The position numbers and the translations under genes are program-made. The notes under the pieces were generated by a model. It did no database searches. It was not told the origin of the DNA and saw only the letters and a list, made by a program, of their open reading frames with translations. A DNA stretch of 64,000 nucleotides from Haloglomus halophilum (lineage in GTDB: Archaea; Halobacteriota; Halobacteria; Halobacteriales; Haloarculaceae), in assembly GCF_024298885.1 (NCBI RefSeq), contig NZ_CP101166.1, forward strand, positions 1,426,001 through 1,490,000. The letters run 5' to 3'. Positions 49,005 to 59,102 of this stretch are shown here, one piece after another. How positions within the stretch are numbered: position 1 is the first letter of the stretch; the number at the start of each line of letters is the position of its first letter.

Positions 49005-50012
49005 CTACTCGGCGTTCTCGTTCCGGTTGTTCTGGTCGTTGCTGTTCTCCTCACCCTGCTCGGAGCGCTCGTCACCGGGGGCCTCGCCCTCGTTGTCGAA
49101 CTCGCCGTCCTCCGGGCCGAGCTGGCCGGGCGCGTCGGCCTGCGAGGAGCCCAGGTCGAAGTCACACGTCTCCGGGGACGGGGAGGTGGTGAAGTCACAG
49201 TCGAAGCCGACGAGCAGTTCCTCGCCGCCGCCCGAGACGATGAACTCGTCGCCGCCGCCGAAGCGGATGTCGTCGTCGTCCGCGTAGTTGTCACCGACGT
49301 ACTCGACGCCGAGCGGGCCCAGCGTCAGGGAGCCGCCCTTGTCACACTGGTGATGGCTGGGCTGGCCGACACAGTCGACCGCGCCGTCGCTCGCGCCCGG
49401 ACCGGAGCCGCCCTGGTAGGCGACACCGACCGTCGAGTTGATGCCCTCGCTCTGGAAGAGGCCGACATCGAGGTCGGCGGTACCCGGTGCCTCACCGCCG
49501 GGGGCCGGGAGGGTCGGCGCGCCGCCGGAGCCGCCGTCACCGCCGGAATCGTCCTCCTCGCCGCTCTCGCCGAGCGGCCCGGGCGCGTCGCCCTGCGAGG
49601 ACGTGGCGTTGACCGCGCAGTCGTCGGCCGACGGCGACGTGCTGAGGTCGCAGTCGAACTCGACGGTGGCCTGTTCGCCCTGGCCCGCGACGGTGACCTC
49701 GTCGCCGCCGCCGAAGCGCGTGTCGTCGTCGTCGCTGTAGGTGTCGCCGGTGTAGGTGACCGAGCCGGCCTCGCTGTTCAGCTCACCGCCCTTGTCGCAC
49801 TCGTGGTGTGTGGGCTGGCCCTCGCAGTCGAGCAGGCCGGAGCCGCCGTTGCCGGCCTCGCCACCCGAGGCCGACAGGTCGATGGTCGAGTTGATGCCGT
49901 CACCGGTGGCGATGCCGATGTCGTCGTCAGCGGCCGCGGGCGCCGCGACCAGCGCCAGCGCGGCGACGAGGACCGCCGCCACCGTCAGGGTCGTTCGTGC
50001 GTCGAGTCGCAT
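49005..50012 (-). CDS. Secreted protein with two Cys/His repeats, function unknown
   Basis: 335 residues. Sec signal peptide (TLTVAAVLVAALALVAAPAAA, cut near AADDD). Two homologous modules of about 105-110 residues follow. In each, GINST starts the module, then C.GQP(T/S)HH.CDKGG, GD.(Y/A)DDDD.RFGGGDE, VEFDC/VGFDC and a SS(Q)GDAPG/SSQADAPG ending. Each module has four Cys and a His-His pair, so metal binding or two disulfides are likely. A Gly/Ser/Asp-rich linker joins them and an Asn/Glu-rich tail ends the protein (EENSNDQNNRNENAE). Not recognised as a named family. It is alone on its strand. Confidence 0.75.
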   Translation of the reverse strand: MRLDARTTLTVAAVLVAALALVAAPAAADDDIGIATGDGINSTIDLSASGGEAGNGGSGLLDCEGQPTHHECDKGGELNSEAGSVTYTGDTYSDDDDTRFGGGDEVTVAGQGEQATVEFDCDLSTSPSADDCAVNATSSQGDAPGPLGESGEEDDSGGDGGSGGAPTLPAPGGEAPGTADLDVGLFQSEGINSTVGVAYQGGSGPGASDGAVDCVGQPSHHQCDKGGSLTLGPLGVEYVGDNYADDDDIRFGGGDEFIVSGGGEELLVGFDCDFTTSPSPETCDFDLGSSQADAPGQLGPEDGEFDNEGEAPGDERSEQGEENSNDQNNRNENAE

Positions 50013-51743: not shown

Positions 51744-51932
51744 ACCCCGGAGGTCGATACTCCAGCCTTATCAAGCCAACCACCAGACCCAGCGTTCGAG
51801 GGCCGTACAGGCCCCCAGACTGCTGAATAGATGGTCAGCCGAGCGTGCGAGTCCCGTTCCAGGTCCCGAACACCGGTTACCACCGGACGCAAAAGTATTT
51901 GTTATATGAAGTTTTCAAATAGATTACCAAAC

Positions 51933-53981
51933 ATGAGTCCGAACCGATTCGACCAGGATGCTTCGTGGAACCGCCGTCGAGTCCTCCGGACGATGGGGCT
52001 GGCCGCCGGTGCGGCCGCCCTCGCGGGCTGCAGCGGTATCAGCAACCGCGAGTTCGTCGCCGGCAACGTGGTGCTGCCGGGCGCGGCCCAGCGTGAGTTC
52101 GGCTTCTCCCCGGTCGCGGAGGGCCAGTCCCAGCGCCGGGAGTTCAGCCGCTCCGTGGCCGGCCAGGACCTCAACGTCACCATCGAGAGCTTCACCTCCG
52201 TCTACGCCGAGGGGGGCGAACCCGGGGATGCGAGGGAGCAACCGCTCCTGTTCCGCTTCGGCGGCGACCGCCCCTTCGGCGCGTCGAACGGCCGCCTCCG
52301 GGCCGCCCCGGCGGACGCGTTCGACATCAGTGGCGGCTCGCTCCCCTTCCTCCGGAGCGCCCTCGTGGACCCGCGTGGCATCGTCCTGTTCGCCCCCGAG
52401 GTCGACGGAGCGGGGCCGACCGCCGACGAGGTGCTGGCGGTCGCACACCGCTCGGCGTTCGACCGCGGCCGCGGGCCGTTCGTCGCCGGCGACGCCGGCG
52501 TCCTGTTCCCGGAGACGGTCTTCTTCCCCGAGACGGTGTTCGACACCTCGCCGGAGTGGCTCGGCGAGGGACTGGCCGCGGCCGGGAGCGGCGAGGGCAG
52601 CGTCGCCTTCTTCGGCGGCAAGCAGGACGGGGAGAACGACGGCCCCGCGGCGGGCAGCAGGTTCGAGGCGGGCGCGGAACTCGACGCGGAGTTCGTCGCC
52701 GCGCCGGCGGCCGCCTTCTTCGGCCCGGGGCTCGCGGTCATCGACCGGGCGGGACTGCGGGACTTCCTCGGCACGCCGGTGACCGGTGCGGAGGCTATCG
52801 TCGGCGAGAACGGCATCGTCGGCGAGAACGGCATCGTCGGCGAACACGGCGTGGTGCTGTTCTCCGACCGCGAGCAGGGGGTCCCCTTCGGCTACCTCGG
52901 TGGGGATGTCCTGTTCCCGGATTCGATCTTCTTCCCGGACACCCTCTTCGAGGAGGGGCGGGTCGTCGCCGCACCGCTGGGCGCGCTGTTCCCGGATTCG
53001 GCGTTCTTCCCGGACGGGTATTTCGTCCCCGACTCGACCTTCTCGCCGGACGCACTGGGGCTGTTCGTCGCCACGGAGCCGCTCGAGGACGTGCCGGAAC
53101 CCTTCCGACTCGTCGAGGCCGGCGCGGAGATCGAGACGACCGGCAGCCTGCTGTTCTTCCCGGTCGGCCCCGACGGCGCCGGCACCGACCCCGAGGCGTT
53201 CCCGGACACCCTCTTCTTCCCCGATTCCACCTTCTTCCCGGACGGGTATTTCTTCCCGGACACCCTCTTCTTCCCGGACACCCTCTTCTTCCCCGATTCC
53301 GCCTTCGCGACGGTGTCGCCGAACGCCGCCCCGATGACTGGCAGCGGCCTCAGGTCGTTCCCCGACACCCTCTTCTTCCCCGACTCGGTCTTCTCGCCCA
53401 CGGAGATGCTTCATCTCCCGGGAAGCGTCGGCTTCCCGGACTCCACCTTCGCCGAGGCGGGGGCGACGACCAGCTACGAGGTCCGGTCGGGCTCGATGGA
53501 CGACGTCACGACCGGGGAACTGGGCGGAGACCGACTCTCCGTCGGCGTCCTGAGCACGCCGAGAGCGTCGGTCGGCGGGCAGTCGCTGAACCCGCTGGCG
53601 GGACTGTCGCTGGCGGACGTGCTGACCGCCCAGCAGGCCGAGTCGTTCCTCGAATCGGCCGGTGTCGGCACCGACCAGGGGGTGAACTGGCTGCGCGGCC
53701 CCACCCTGATCGAGCGGTCGGAGGCGGTCATCCTGGGCACTCCGACGGAGATGGAGACGTACGGCGGGGTGCTGGCCGGATCGGAGCCGAACGCCACCTA
53801 CGTCCACCTCGCGCGGGTCGAGAGCGGCAACAGCGTCGCCATCGTGGCCGGGGTCCACGGGTTCGGGGTCACGGACCCGAACCGGCCGCTCGTCGGCCCG
53901 GACGGCTACCTCACCGAGTCGCAGCTCGACGACCGGCGCGACACGGTCGCCGCGGTCGACGCCGCGCTCGTCGTCGGCTGA
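51933..53981 (+). CDS. Tat lipoprotein with large F-P-D hexapeptide repeat region (DUF6517-like ends)
   Basis: 682 residues. Tat signal NRRRVLRTMGLAAGAAALAG followed by the lipobox Cys. The N-terminal (QREFGFSPVAEG, QRREFSRSVAGQDLNVTIES) and C-terminal parts (ILGTPTEMETYGGVLAGSEP, then THVHLARVESG-like NATYVHLARVESGNSVAIVA) look like the haloarchaeal DUF6517 family (tentative). Between them is a region of about 400 residues with period-6 repeats: VLFPETVFFPETVFDT (about residue 190), GENGIVGENGIVGEHGVV (about 290), LFPDSIFFPDTLFEEG (about 327), LFPDSAFFPDGYFVPDSTFS (about 350), FPDTLFFPDSTFFPDGYFFP and on to DSAF (about 422-455), and FPDTLFFPDSVFS (about 475). ATG 51933 was chosen because TATA-like AAGTATTTGTTATATG (51893-51908) fits a leaderless start. 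Confidence 0.75.
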   Translation: MSPNRFDQDASWNRRRVLRTMGLAAGAAALAGCSGISNREFVAGNVVLPGAAQREFGFSPVAEGQSQRREFSRSVAGQDLNVTIESFTSVYAEGGEPGDAREQPLLFRFGGDRPFGASNGRLRAAPADAFDISGGSLPFLRSALVDPRGIVLFAPEVDGAGPTADEVLAVAHRSAFDRGRGPFVAGDAGVLFPETVFFPETVFDTSPEWLGEGLAAAGSGEGSVAFFGGKQDGENDGPAAGSRFEAGAELDAEFVAAPAAAFFGPGLAVIDRAGLRDFLGTPVTGAEAIVGENGIVGENGIVGEHGVVLFSDREQGVPFGYLGGDVLFPDSIFFPDTLFEEGRVVAAPLGALFPDSAFFPDGYFVPDSTFSPDALGLFVATEPLEDVPEPFRLVEAGAEIETTGSLLFFPVGPDGAGTDPEAFPDTLFFPDSTFFPDGYFFPDTLFFPDTLFFPDSAFATVSPNAAPMTGSGLRSFPDTLFFPDSVFSPTEMLHLPGSVGFPDSTFAEAGATTSYEVRSGSMDDVTTGELGGDRLSVGVLSTPRASVGGQSLNPLAGLSLADVLTAQQAESFLESAGVGTDQGVNWLRGPTLIERSEAVILGTPTEMETYGGVLAGSEPNATYVHLARVESGNSVAIVAGVHGFGVTDPNRPLVGPDGYLTESQLDDRRDTVAAVDAALVVG

Positions 53982-53996
53982 GCCGAGTCCACCGGC

Positions 53997-54545
53997 TCAC
54001 CCCACCACCCGCACCACCAGCGTCAGGTCACGGTGCCCACGTGGCGTCGTCACGGTCACGTCGAACGCCGCCGCCAGGACCACGGTCTCGCCGGCACGCT
54101 CCTGCACGACGACGCCACGGTCGCCACGGCAGGAGCCGAACGCGCGACCGCGGCCGCCGGGGCAGTTCGCGTCGGCCCACGCGTTCGCCGCCGAGCGGTT
54201 GTACCGAACGGCGTAGGCCACCCCTTCCGCGACCTGCGAGGCGTTGAGCGTGTCCAGCCGTGGAGCGAGCTCCGTGCGCACGGTGTCGACCGCGCGGCCG
54301 CGCTCCGGCCAGGCGTGCTCGCCCGTGGCATTCGCCCCGGCCTCGTGGACGGCACGCTCCAGGAACCGCCGCGCGTTCTCCCCGTGCCCGTCGTAGTCGG
54401 CGCTCGCGGCCACGTCCGGGTGATAGCCCAGCTGCAGGTACGCGACGACGACGGGCACGAGCGCGAGGGCGATGATGGCGGCCGCGGCGAGCACGAGCTG
54501 TCCGCGGTCCGGACCGTCCCCACCGGCCGGGAGCGCCTCAGGCAT
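53997..54545 (-). CDS. Type IV pilin-like protein (DUF7261-like)
   Basis: 182 residues. Near the N-terminus, DRGQLVLAAAAIIALALVPV is a type III (PibD-cleaved) signal with the hydrophobic pilin helix. The globular part is polar with one Cys pair (ANCPGGRGRAFGSCRGD) and ends in beta strands (TVTTPRGHRDLTLVVRVVG). It belongs to the haloarchaeal DUF7261-DUF7266 pilin group (tentative). Last gene of the pilin operon, overlapping the preceding start by eight bases. Probably a minor pilin of an adhesion or secretion pilus. Confidence 0.72.
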   Translation of the reverse strand: MPEALPAGGDGPDRGQLVLAAAAIIALALVPVVVAYLQLGYHPDVAASADYDGHGENARRFLERAVHEAGANATGEHAWPERGRAVDTVRTELAPRLDTLNASQVAEGVAYAVRYNRSAANAWADANCPGGRGRAFGSCRGDRGVVVQERAGETVVLAAAFDVTVTTPRGHRDLTLVVRVVG

Positions 54546-54999
54546 ACCACACCTCCACGGTCACGGGCCCGTGCAGCGACGTGACGGTCGCACGCCCGAC
54601 CGGGACACCGGCGGGGCGGCGGAACCCGACGGCGCCGTGTGGCGTCTCCACGCGATAGAGGAGGTTGTCCGGCAGGATGCGGTCGACGCGCCGGTCCAGG
54701 GCGCCGCGCTCGCGCTCGAAGGCGTCCGGCGACCGGGTCACCTCGGAGAGCCGGGTCGCACCCCGGTGGCGCGGGGGCTCGCCGGCCAGGACGGTAGCGG
54801 CGTCGTCGGCGTACGCCTCCAGCTGCGACGTCCGGGTGTCGGCGGCGGGAACGCCGGCGCCGAACGACACCGCGACGGCGAGGATGAACGTCACGCCGAC
54901 GGCCGCCTCCACGACCGGGAGCGAGAGCTGCCCCCGCTCGTCGAGTGCCCGCCAGCGACGGCGAGTTCCACCGGAAGCGGAGGGGTCGCGCTCACGCAT
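54538..54999 (-). CDS. Type IV pilin-like protein (DUF7262-like)
   Basis: 153 residues. ERGQLSLPVVEAAVGVTFIL is the prepilin signal: Gly before a Gln-Leu-Ser start and a hydrophobic helix with Glu at position 5-like (VVEAAVG). The rest is a mixed beta region ending in HGPVTVEVWYA. Eight-base overlap with both neighbours shows translational coupling. Minor pilin role inferred from the operon and signal. Confidence 0.7.
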   Translation of the reverse strand: MRERDPSASGGTRRRWRALDERGQLSLPVVEAAVGVTFILAVAVSFGAGVPAADTRTSQLEAYADDAATVLAGEPPRHRGATRLSEVTRSPDAFERERGALDRRVDRILPDNLLYRVETPHGAVGFRRPAGVPVGRATVTSLHGPVTVEVWYA

Positions 55000-55678
55000 C
55001 GACGGTCACCGCCAGCGTGGCCTTGGTCGTCCGGGCGGGACGGTACGTGACGGCCACGTCGCCCTGTTCGACCGGGCGGTCGGCCGCGAACGCGAGCCGG
55101 AGCGTCTCGAACCGGGAGGTTCGGACCGTATACGCCCCCGCGAGCCCGCCGGGGTCGTGCAAGACCACCCGGTCGTTCGCACGGACGGTCGTGACGTTGG
55201 GCCCGGCGGCGATGTCGAGGGTCACGCTCGCGGTCCGGCGGGGGAGCGTGGTCGCGTTGTCCGCGAGCGGCGGCGTCCGCTCGACCCGCGGCTCGCGCCG
55301 CACGAGGACGACGCGGCGAACCGTGACGCCGCCGGTCGCGTCGCCCCGTCGGAGGACCGTCCGGTCGTCCAGCCGAACCCGGACCTCGTGGTCACCGACG
55401 ACCGGGAACCGCCCATCGATATCGACGGCCCCGAGCGCCGAGGCGTTCACCACGTTCCCCCGCGCCGTGTGCGCGGCGTCGGCCGCGACAAGCCGTTCGG
55501 CGAGTGCGACCGCGACCCGGCGCTCCTCGGGCTGGCGGTCGGTTCCGGCGAAGGCCCCGTCGGCCAGCGTCAGCGCCACGCCGAGCGTCGAGACCAGCAC
55601 CAGCAGCGCCACCGCCAGTGCGGGCAGGTTCATCTGCGCCCGGGCGTCCCGGCCTGTGTCGTCGGCACGGCGGGTCAC
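54992..55678 (-). CDS. Type IV pilin-like protein (DUF7263-like)
   Basis: 228 residues. RAQMNLPALAVALLVLVSTL is the N-terminal helix; the signal is less canonical, with a short positively charged start (TRRADDTGRDARA). The remainder is largely beta (VTVRRVVLVRREPRVE, TVRANDRVVLHD), typical of a pilin head. Four-base overlap with the next gene upstream and eight with the gene downstream. Confidence 0.7.
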   Translation of the reverse strand: MTRRADDTGRDARAQMNLPALAVALLVLVSTLGVALTLADGAFAGTDRQPEERRVAVALAERLVAADAAHTARGNVVNASALGAVDIDGRFPVVGDHEVRVRLDDRTVLRRGDATGGVTVRRVVLVRREPRVERTPPLADNATTLPRRTASVTLDIAAGPNVTTVRANDRVVLHDPGGLAGAYTVRTSRFETLRLAFAADRPVEQGDVAVTYRPARTTKATLAVTVDA

Positions 55679-56163
55679 GACGCATCACCCCGAACGAGCC
55701 GGACGACGAACCCGCCGGGAGCCCGGTCGACGCTGACGACCGCCGGCTGGCGACTCGACCACGACCCCTCGACGCGGACGACGTGGGCCGGGAGCGCGAG
55801 CCGACTCCGCGCGACGAGCGCGTCGTCGGGGTGGTCGAGAACGAGCGCCCGGCCGTCGGTCCGGACCCGGTATCCCTGCCCGGCGATGGTCCGCGGGAGG
55901 TCGACCCGGCTCCGGGCCGTCGCGTGTCGTGTCGCCGGCGGGACGGCCTGCTGGACCCGTTCGGCGGCGCCCGCGAGCGTCCGGTCCGCGACCCGCTGGC
56001 CGGCGACCCGCTCGTACCCCGGAACGACGGCCGTCGAGAGCGCGGTCGTGACGAGGACGACGAACAGGACCACGAGTCCCGCCTCGAGGGCCTTCCCGAC
56101 GACCGGCGCGACGGCGCGGTCCGCTCGACCGGCGGGCGTTCGGAGCGACGACGGGACGGTCAC
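55675..56163 (-). CDS. Type IV pilin-like protein (DUF7266-like)
   Basis: 162 residues. RAVAPVVGKALEAGLVVLFV is a pilin-type helix (AVAPVVGK...EAG: a classic haloarchaeal pilin start with Glu). The C-terminal beta region ends GGFVVRLVRGDAS. Overlaps both neighbours by four bases. Confidence 0.72.
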   Translation of the reverse strand: MTVPSSLRTPAGRADRAVAPVVGKALEAGLVVLFVVLVTTALSTAVVPGYERVAGQRVADRTLAGAAERVQQAVPPATRHATARSRVDLPRTIAGQGYRVRTDGRALVLDHPDDALVARSRLALPAHVVRVEGSWSSRQPAVVSVDRAPGGFVVRLVRGDAS

Positions 56164-57143
56164 GAGTCCACACCCCGCTCGTCGTCGCGGTCGCCCGGCG
56201 GAACGTCGTCGGGAATCGGCGGCTGGATGGGGAGGGGCCCGTCGTCCTGGTCGCGCTCGCCGTCGCCGTCGTACGGGTCGTGTTCGCCATCGTCGTCGGT
56301 GCCGTCGTCAGTGCCGTCGTCAGTTCCGTCGCCCGGTGACGTCCCGGTCGCCGTCGACGAGTCCGCACCGCCCACCGAGAGGTTCAGGTCGTGGACCACG
56401 AGGTAGGCGCGCCGCTGACCGGGGTAGGTCGCGACGACGCTCGGGACGCCGTCGCCGTCGATGTCGCGCTGGTCCACCGAGGCGCCCTGCTCGCGGAAAT
56501 ACGGCGCCAGCGCGCCCGGCGTCCGGGTCTCGACCGCGACGCGGAACCGCGAGACGCCGAGGTCGGTGCGCTCGTGGCTGACGTTCGTCCGGAGCGGGAC
56601 CGTCGTCCCACCGCCGGCGGTGACGGTCCGGCCGGCGTCGGTCCCGAGCCGTGGAGCGCCGACGACGAGGACCCCACCGTCGCCGCGCGAGGCGGTCACC
56701 GGCGGTGGGTCGTGGAGCTCGGCCTGTCCGGGCGTGCCCCGGATCACGGCCCCCGCGACGGAGGCGACCCGGCCACCCGTGCCGGTCCAGACGAGGGCGC
56801 CCGCGTGGAGGCGGTGGACCGTCCGCGTCCCGTTGAGCACCCGGATATCGCGCTCGACGGTCCGGATGCGGCCACCGGTGAACGCGAGCGGCTCGCGAGC
56901 GCGGCCGGTCCGCTCGACCGGTTCGAGCGCCATCGTCATCCCGTCGGCGACGCGGGCCGCGTCGGCGCTGGCGGCGTTCTGCTCGACCACGGTCCCGATG
57001 CCGGCGGTGAGCGCGCCCAGCGAGACGACCGTCAGTCCGAGCAGGACCGCGACGCCGACGACCTGCGCGGCGGCGCGGTCGTCGTGGCCGGATTCGGCCC
57101 GGCAGCCGTCGGGCCACCCACCCCCGGGACCGAGTGCCCGCAC
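56160..57143 (-). CDS. Type IV pilin-like protein with long acidic tail (DUF7289-like)
   Basis: 327 residues. DRAAAQVVGVAVLLGLTVVS is a pilin-type signal and helix, and VEQNAASADAARVADGM continues it. The large beta region (VTASRGDGGVLVVGAPRLGT and later FRVAVETRTPGALAPYFREQ) is followed by a Gly/Asp-rich, very acidic, low-complexity tail (about residues 270-327) that may extend from the pilus surface. GTG start at 57143 directly abuts the PilC stop, so the gene is coupled to PilC. The largest pilin in the operon; perhaps the tip or an adhesin. Confidence 0.68.
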   Translation of the reverse strand: MRALGPGGGWPDGCRAESGHDDRAAAQVVGVAVLLGLTVVSLGALTAGIGTVVEQNAASADAARVADGMTMALEPVERTGRAREPLAFTGGRIRTVERDIRVLNGTRTVHRLHAGALVWTGTGGRVASVAGAVIRGTPGQAELHDPPPVTASRGDGGVLVVGAPRLGTDAGRTVTAGGGTTVPLRTNVSHERTDLGVSRFRVAVETRTPGALAPYFREQGASVDQRDIDGDGVPSVVATYPGQRRAYLVVHDLNLSVGGADSSTATGTSPGDGTDDGTDDGTDDDGEHDPYDGDGERDQDDGPLPIQPPIPDDVPPGDRDDERGVDS

Positions 57144-59102
57144 TCAGACCACCCCCGCCGCCGCGAAGGCGACGTGACAGACGAGGGCGAGCGAGGCGGA
57201 GTGGAGCAGGGCCTCGTACCGGTCCCGGGCGGCGGTCCCGGCGAACCAGCCGCAGGCGAGCATCGTCGCCTGCGCGACCCAGTAGAAGCGCCGGCCGTCG
57301 CGGGCCCGGTCGACGGCATCCGGGTCGAGCGCGGTCGCGGCAGCGCTCCCCCCGGCGTCCTGTACCGCCGAGAGCTGCGCGAACCCGTCGAGAACGTGGC
57401 CGTGGACCGCGAGGACGATGCCGACGACGAGCAACGCGGTCGTCCAGCCGACGGCGACGTACACCATCATCGACGAACGGAGCGCCTTCCGTTCGTGCCG
57501 GAGCCGACCGACCTCCGTCTGGAGCGTCTCGAACGCCGCCTCCGGATCGCCGCCGAGTTCCAGCGCACCGGTCACGAGGCCGATGGTCTGCTCGGCCAGC
57601 GGCGTCCCGACGCTGTCGACGAAGGCGTCGAGTGCGGCCGTTCGGCTGTCGGCCGCCGCCTCGCGCTCGGCCGACTCGCCCCGGACGGGTGCCTCGGCCA
57701 GGTCGAGCCGGTAGGCGAGGTCGTCGACATCGTCGCTCAGCGCACCCAGGTCGGTCTCCCGGGCGACCGCCGCGACCGCGTCGGCGAACGGCCGGCCCAG
57801 CGTGACCCGGCCGGCGACCGCGTGGACGAAGTCCTGTATCTCGCGGTCCTTCGCGTCGTCCAGCCGGGCCCGCCGGACCGCCACCAGCCCCACGGGGAGC
57901 CCGTACGCGACGTACCCGAGGAGGCACGCCCGCGGGATGGGATAGCCGAGCGACAGGGCCGCGCCGAGGACGGCGACGGCTGGCGCGAGGAACACGGCCG
58001 CCGCGCTCGCCGGCGTGCGAAGCGCCGTCAGGAGCGTCCCCAGTCCACCCGGGCGCTCGTGGCTCGGCGGCGCCGCGCTGGGTGGCTGGAGCGACGCGAC
58101 GAGCATCGTCGCGCCCGCACCGACGAGGAGGACGAACCCGGCGCTCCCGTAGGCCAGCAGCGCCCGGGGCGTGGTGGTGCCGAGCGGGGTCGCCATCGGC
58201 GCCGAGAGTCCCGGCGCCAGCACCGCCAGCACGGTGACGACGACCACGAGCAGCGCCGGCAGCACGAGCAGGACCACGAACAGCTCGGCGACGAGTTCGA
58301 GGAAGTCCTCGGCGCGCTGCCGGGCGCGGGCCTGCTGGTGGCTCAGCATCCGCGACTCCATCTCGAGGTACTGCGAGAGCGCGTCGGCGCCCTGGTCGGC
58401 GTGCTCGCGGAACTTGAGCAGGAACGGCGCCAGCGTCTCCCGGGAGGGCGTGTCCCGGGCGACCCGGCGGAGTCCCTCGTCGAGACTCCCCGTCAGGGCC
58501 GCGCGGTTGAGGACGCGCCGGAACGCGGCGCTCGTCTCGCCGTACGCGTCGGCCTCGGCCACCTGCCGGAGCAGCGTCCGCCCGTCGTCGCTCCCCGTGG
58601 CCAGCGCCCGGAGGTACCGAACCGCGCCGGGAAGGGTGCGTTCGATGGCCGCCTGCCGCGCGCTCGCGACCCACCGCAGGTAGGTCCCCGCCAGATGGAC
58701 GGTCCCGCGTTTGGCGAGCGCGCCCGCGAGCAGTCCCAGCACGAGCGCGACGGCCGTGCGCGGCAGGTCGGGCATCGAGAGCCGCTCGACCAGCGGCAGT
58801 CCCTCGTGGGCGACCGACGCGGCCGCGGCCAGCAGGTCGGCGGGGACCGCGAGCCCGCCCACCGCCACCAGCGCTCCGACCCACAGCCCGACGAGCCACG
58901 ACAGCGCGTACACCCGTGCGAGGTAGCGGTCGAAGCCGACGCGGAGGTCGGCGGCGCGGTAGCGCTTCCGGTCGCGGTCGTGCCGCGACCGGTCGGCACG
59001 GCCGGCGAACAGCGCGTACACGCCGCGGTCGAGCGCCTCGACCACGGCGAACGGTCCCGTCCCGTTCCCGCGACTGGCACCGTCGTCAGTCCGGGTCGCC
59101 AT
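57144..59102 (-). CDS. Type IV pilus/secretion assembly membrane protein PilC (T2SS-F, two domains)
   Basis: 652 residues. Two type II secretion F domains: about residues 130-310 (LPGAVRYLRALATGSDDGRT and FLELVAELFVVLLVLPALLV) and about 420-640 (HAVAGRVTLGRPFADAVAAV and GGDPEAAFETLQTEVGRLRH). Six or more transmembrane helices flank them. This is the archaeal PilC/TadC-like platform on which pilins assemble. Normally the gene for the PilB/VirB11-like ATPase lies just upstream, but no such gene is visible here. The start codon at 59102 overlaps the stop of a 25-residue upstream ORF. Confidence 0.9.
   Translation of the reverse strand: MATRTDDGASRGNGTGPFAVVEALDRGVYALFAGRADRSRHDRDRKRYRAADLRVGFDRYLARVYALSWLVGLWVGALVAVGGLAVPADLLAAAASVAHEGLPLVERLSMPDLPRTAVALVLGLLAGALAKRGTVHLAGTYLRWVASARQAAIERTLPGAVRYLRALATGSDDGRTLLRQVAEADAYGETSAAFRRVLNRAALTGSLDEGLRRVARDTPSRETLAPFLLKFREHADQGADALSQYLEMESRMLSHQQARARQRAEDFLELVAELFVVLLVLPALLVVVVTVLAVLAPGLSAPMATPLGTTTPRALLAYGSAGFVLLVGAGATMLVASLQPPSAAPPSHERPGGLGTLLTALRTPASAAAVFLAPAVAVLGAALSLGYPIPRACLLGYVAYGLPVGLVAVRRARLDDAKDREIQDFVHAVAGRVTLGRPFADAVAAVARETDLGALSDDVDDLAYRLDLAEAPVRGESAEREAAADSRTAALDAFVDSVGTPLAEQTIGLVTGALELGGDPEAAFETLQTEVGRLRHERKALRSSMMVYVAVGWTTALLVVGIVLAVHGHVLDGFAQLSAVQDAGGSAAATALDPDAVDRARDGRRFYWVAQATMLACGWFAGTAARDRYEALLHSASLALVCHVAFAAAGVV

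Follow-up and report, generated by a model that had tools for sequence, protein, structure and literature searches.

Aromatic Pro-Asp/Gly hexapeptide arrays in a long-insert DUF6517 lipoprotein of Haloglomus halophilum and in non-homologous exported proteins

DUF6517 proteins (Pfam PF20127) are haloarchaeal lipoproteins whose typical full matches lie in reading frames of about 210–350 amino acids without a large insertion; a search of the open-access literature on this family found nothing. Short repeats are already known from exported proteins, and several of these invite comparison with the arrays described below. The hexapeptide repeats of left-handed beta-helices have the same period of six and a hydrophobic first position, but the arrays studied here have no Pfam hexapeptide match, too few units per site and a chemistry of aromatic residues with Pro-Asp or Pro-Gly. 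A Staphylococcus epidermidis plasmid-encoded LPXTG protein annotated as surface-anchored (WP_051954335.1, locus L316) contains P-G-D-T within its tandem EQPGDT hexapeptide, whereas its (EQPGDT)n run, which makes up most of the protein, lacks aromatics, extends over dozens of units and belongs to a protein with a sortase-type anchor; its resemblance to the aromatic hexapeptide arrays is probably convergent at most.

The window analyzed here is a 64,000-nucleotide stretch of the Haloglomus halophilum genome (NZ_CP101166.1, positions 1,426,001 to 1,490,000), and it contains a forward-strand open reading frame at 51831–53981 for which the best start gives a protein of 691 residues (Table 1). As recognized in the first-pass annotation, this protein begins like a Tat lipoprotein: the signal reads N-R-R-R-V-L-R-T-M-G-L...L-A-G-C, matching the haloarchaeal pattern of a twin arginine followed by a hydrophobic stretch and a lipobox cysteine (NRRRVLRTMGLAAGAAALAGC), with the cysteine at residue 42 (DNA 52029–52031). 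The RR...AGC arrangement is kept in aligned homologues, and the protein is predicted to be Tat-exported and lipid-anchored at the cell surface.

Table 1. Positions in the window of the lipoprotein gene, its signal, its repeat arrays and its conserved domain
Feature	Position	Strand	Evidence
Tat lipoprotein gene, long-insert DUF6517 family, 691 aa (start ATG 51906)	51906..53981	+	Open reading frame, start choice, Pfam match
Twin-arginine signal RRVLRTMGLAAGAAALAGC with lipobox Cys42	51972..52031	+	Sequence
Array 1: FPETVF FPETVF	52506..52541	+	Sequence, TRF, shuffle count
Second repeat type: VGENGI twice, then VGEHGVV (GENGIV-GENGIV-GEHGVV)	52800..52859	+	Sequence, TRF
Array 2: FPDSIF FPDTLF	52914..52949	+	Sequence, shuffle count
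Array 3: FPDSAF FPDGYF VPDSTF	52989..53042	+	Sequence, shuffle count
Array 4 (central): FPDTLF FPDSTF FPDGYF FPDTLF FPDTLF FPDSAF	53199..53306	+	Sequence, TRF
Array 5: FPDTLF FPDSVF	53358..53393	+	Sequence, shuffle count
Single unit FPDSTF	53433..53450	+	Sequence
C-terminal DUF6517 core part (PF20127 positions 70-164)	53538..53858	+	Pfam; AlphaFold2 pLDDT mostly 57-77; weak Foldseek similarity to PsbP/LpqN

The C-terminal end of the protein matches PF20127 with an E-value of 1.8e-8 (35.1 bits against a curated cut-off of 23.9, which homologues also exceed), and this is its sole Pfam match at E up to 1. Only one stretch of the core of about 187 profile positions is matched continuously, and an N-terminal core part aligns at about residues 45–100. 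The two parts lie at opposite ends, so approximately 440 residues are inserted into the DUF6517 core. A Salinarchaeum homologue (G130) is matched over profile positions 3–58 and 70–163, with the break between 58 and 70, in line with the earlier suggestion that the ends of the protein look like DUF6517 and that the repeat region is an insertion. Thus, the protein resembles other DUF6517 lipoproteins in the alignment of both ends with the core and in its Tat signal and lipobox, but differs from them in a core split by array-bearing sequence. Foldseek searches with the low-confidence AlphaFold2 model gave a best E-value of 3e-3, and the PsbP and LpqN folds (Mog1/PsbP-like; LpqN is an envelope lipoprotein) appeared among the best weak similarities at 6e-3 to 8e-3 without a counterpart to the insertion.

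All 15 copies of F-P-[DE]-x-x-F lie within the insertion, at six sites (residues 201–212; 337–348; 362–373, continued by V-P-D-S-T-F to 379; 432–467, with six units; 485–496; and 510–515). The strict period-6 arrays noticed on first reading are therefore real, the residue numbers given for them being about 10 too low through counting from a later start; the separate GENGIV-type array was also correctly reported, and the nearest homologue carries VTDPDRMA repeats in its place. Nine of the motifs' junctions are tandem pairs, and in 20,000 shuffles of the protein the mean was 0.16 motifs (maximum 3) and 0 tandem pairs; TRF independently detects 18-bp arrays in the gene. DNA copies had been described as near-identical, which holds in part only, given that the 13 FPDxxF units have nine distinct spellings. 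TTCCCGGACACCCTCTTC occurs four times and TTCCCGGACGGGTATTTC twice, both scattered over different arrays, and some unit spellings have recently been copied between arrays of this gene.

Profile and pattern searches of haloarchaeal genomes recovered long-insert DUF6517 homologues from several families. Nine of these (the window protein counted), from several haloarchaeal families and genera, have units at corresponding sites in the alignment, and each uses a dialect of its own. The closest three are G404, whose units are FPDSTF, FPDGYF and FPDTIF and whose central array also has six units, and G375 and G430, with WPDSVF-like units in arrays that have largely decayed, so that the repeat module is not strictly required. 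Further dialects are FPGDSF/FPGDAF in the Salinarchaeum protein, FPGDHF/FPGGTW in G203, FPGDTW in Natrialba swarupiae (G279) and IPGSTW in Natronosalvus amylolyticus (G204) and G343. Among more distant members, YPGSMW is found in Haloferax profundi, Halobaculum and Halomicroarcula and FPGETY, four times, in G198, while others hold wholly different short repeats (TGNNPFL five times, DRHGPMR, VGGQSPF). A two-unit pattern matched in 14 of 391 haloarchaeal genomes, mostly within the long-insert family, compared with 2 for the reversed-pattern control. A PDB entry, 8zxl, that surfaced for the IPGSTW array was discarded as a composition artefact (bias 271, with no real alignment).

Other arrangements of the family were seen along the way. 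At four loci (L309:5028-6505, L310:5874-7351, L040:8398-9916 and L041:8373-9814) the long protein is split near the insertion point into two adjacent or overlapping genes, one encoding a Tat lipoprotein piece and the other a piece without a signal, as if the two were exported together. Elsewhere (G000:C1:206384-208574, i.e. L033, together with L040 and L042) a fusion gene joins a gp19 phage-tail-tube domain to the C-terminal part of a long-insert DUF6517 protein and has a separate tube gene beside it; ahead of both, G000 and G001 have a short gene for a Tat lipoprotein whose resemblance to DUF6517 is confined to the N-terminal part. Repeats of the types DRHGPMR, TGNNPF, VGGQSPF and KGDTTLF occur at L016, L007/L038, L014/L036, L022/L039 and L307, and some are identical to conserved segments of gp19-type tube proteins in related genomes. 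A gp19 tube gene also lies about 23–24 kb from each IPGSTW array gene (G204:C5, 197307 versus 220093-222138; G343:C12, 435212 versus 408972-411017).

The peptide has been kept while the DNA has changed. By Nei-Gojobori counts between units, in which the motif-based choice of units depresses pN at the fixed positions, pS is 0.45 over all 15 units of the window protein with a pN/pS of 0.40, and pN/pS is 0.39 in G404, 0.20 in G130 and 0.11 in G204, whose 12 units (IPGSTW, IPGSSW and IPGGTW) are 12 distinct DNA copies with a pS of 0.80. Likeness extends across sites: pN in the window protein is 0.181 between separate sites and 0.179 within one array, and in G130 0.150 and 0.113, whereas in G203 and G204 units at separate sites come less close to within-array likeness. 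Units of different homologues mostly stand at pN 0.22–0.50, with only the closest pair, G204 and G343, at 0.12. Part of the between-site likeness in the window protein is due to recent intragenic copying, as two DNA spellings recur in different arrays, but synonymous divergence is too high for such copying to explain the likeness in G130 and G204. The recent expansion proposed in the first-pass annotation is not supported, given the strongly diverged synonymous sites, the matching sites in other genera and families and the equally long central array of G404.

In a further scan, each species was represented by a single genome and the pattern required three [FY]P[DEG]xx[FW] units in a row; it gave at least 80 genome-contig loci, so that the bacterial distribution is a lower bound. 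Sorting these loci on pS and pN/pS, on the length of the frame and on the signal peptide showed many to be low-complexity frames, and we judged roughly twenty, DUF6517 members included, to be convincing on the basis of long frames, export signals and synonymous divergence. Among the convincing matches listed outside DUF6517 are, in Alphaproteobacteria, small proteins with Tat or Sec signals (FPGDMF, FPGDSF, FPGDDF, FPGDNF, FPGEMF), beta-helix and other exported proteins of Myxococcota and Lujinxingia (FPGETF, FPGDMF, FPGQDW, FPGGTW, FPGDSF), a Spirosomataceae protein in Bacteroidota (FPGNIF) and a Balneolaceae protein in Balneolota (FPGDNF/FPGDSF). Most bacterial array proteins that were read have a pN of 0 and a pS of 0.2–1.2, and where pN is zero the free positions of the unit are invariant as well. 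Two further haloarchaeal exported proteins carry the unit, a DUF1102 protein and a lipoprotein encoded on a Natrinema plasmid, whose C-terminal part is unrelated. Searching for F-P-D-x-x-F-type arrays, as first proposed, thus finds them both in homologues and in non-homologous exported proteins. Of eight proteins from the scan outside DUF6517 that were compared with Pfam, one gave a match, to a beta-helix family. Since the scaffolds look unrelated, convergence would be the simplest account of the unit's recurrence. Searches of viral contigs by conserved patterns yielded no relatives; what matched there was for the most part short frames whose synonymous sites had diverged little, which we judged to be low-complexity and rejected as real arrays.

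Two smaller observations concern these carriers. In three alphaproteobacterial loci (L105, L106 and L125) the FPGDMF/FPGEMF Tat gene adjoins a flavoprotein-like gene, with a FAD_binding_3 match for the L106 copy. A PAGWSDW segment is present in three array proteins, two haloarchaeal and one from Balneolaceae (L271, L275 and L147); YPAGWSDW was rejected as a motif specific to array proteins, being found also in two solute-binding-like lipoproteins of haloarchaea (L318 and L320).

With matching sites in homologues, unrelated exported carriers and a peptide kept while its DNA changed, the hexapeptide looks like a module selected at the peptide level rather than a repeat accident. Its general form would be aromatic (or Ile)-Pro-[Asp/Gly]-x-x-aromatic, with copies distributed over several positions of a long insertion. 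Pro-Asp and Pro-Gly turns flanked by aromatic residues are established turn formers, and most simply each unit would be such a beta-turn bracketed by aromatics. That one protein keeps one dialect across separate sites suggests contact of its units either with one another or with a single shared partner. We favour the former and tentatively propose, at somewhat below an even chance and from sequence comparison, that neighboring units, as well as units from different sites of one protein, may pack together into a stiff ribbon or patch lined with aromatics on the outer side of the membrane, which could act as a spacer or cohesive element at the cell surface. A broader claim, which makes the aromatic-Pro-[Gly/Asp]-x-x-aromatic array a recurrent and undescribed module of unrelated archaeal and bacterial exported proteins, with units that match because packing is homotypic and that hence fall into one dialect per protein, is a bolder conjecture that we hold to be rather unlikely as a whole. 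No named family for the array was found by Pfam, PDB sequence or literature searches (open-access literature only, and so weak evidence of absence), as the first-pass annotation had also stated, and a selected, cross-domain aromatic hexapeptide unit appears to be undescribed. So specific a chemistry, recurring in both archaea and bacteria in exported proteins that are unrelated, with the peptide kept and codons diverged, points to an unnamed structural or binding element, and the repeat module offers a first handle on the haloarchaeal DUF6517 lipoprotein family. The dialects carry a prediction of their own, namely that a unit has to match either its fellow units or a single partner.

A common partner is what the foremost alternative supposes: the units would be multivalent docking motifs recognized by, e.g., an envelope receptor or a component of a contractile injection system, with the dialect tracking the partner. 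The single dialect across separate sites fits this, other sites in the family hold other short peptides of which some equal conserved gp19-type tail-tube segments (DRHGP[LM]R at the tube N-terminus; KGDTTLF), and the gp19-DUF6517 fusion adjoins a tube gene in G000, G001, G002 and G109. However, the enrichment of tube genes in genomes that carry the long family is weak (8 of 21 versus 72 of 360, p of about 0.05, uncorrected for phylogeny), the three closest homologues are not among the tube-positive genomes, and no injection genes are recognizable by eye within a few kb of the bacterial array genes. We regard docking as unlikely, though as the most probable of the alternatives.

Less probable again is a low-complexity spacer generated by slippage and intragenic copying under little selection on exact sequence. 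Identical DNA copies in distant arrays and other short duplications in family members (VTDPDRMA, TGNNPFL five times, KVEIKIA) are what such a process would leave, but it does not fit units with high synonymous and low or zero amino-acid divergence, their presence at matching sites in homologues or their recurrence across phyla. Marginally below this we place the beta-solenoid with stacked Phe that was first suggested, of left-handed beta-helix type. Period six, a hydrophobic first position, identical units suited to in-register stacking and longest arrays of 6–10 units speak for it; yet at five of the six sites in the window protein the one to three units present would fill no more than a single coil if each turn took three hexapeptides, the unit counts are not divisible by three, and no Pfam hexapeptide family matches at E up to 1. 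The AlphaFold2 model has a mean pLDDT of 36, with 23–36 in the arrays, almost no strands through the insertion and moderate confidence confined to the C-terminal core, which is weak evidence given a shallow six-row alignment, and an alphaproteobacterial array protein likewise gave no confident array structure and no regular strands (seven rows, also shallow). This lack of a confident array structure also counts against the packing that we favour. PDB sequence searches with these two proteins and a beta-helix array protein returned no match. The outcome that the first-pass annotation had set against its own proposal, disorder together with a lack of repeat-bearing homologues, is not what was found, since homologues with such repeats exist. 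Finally, a RiPP-like precursor from which identical hexapeptides are cut and modified is very improbable: identical units with varied codons and the flavoprotein-like gene beside three alphaproteobacterial array genes would suit it, but the units are contiguous without spacers and, in the window protein, heterogeneous, the arrays form part of long conserved proteins, and no maturation genes were recognized near the window gene.

Two neighboring regions of the window, both on the reverse strand, also drew our attention. At 49005-50012 an exported-looking protein consists of two similar halves (GINST...GQP[TS]HH.CDKGG) and has no Pfam match. Immediately beyond the lipoprotein gene, 53997-59102 encodes DUF7261, DUF7262, DUF7263, DUF7266 and DUF7289 proteins and a T2SSF membrane protein, and looks like a type IV pilus-like cluster.
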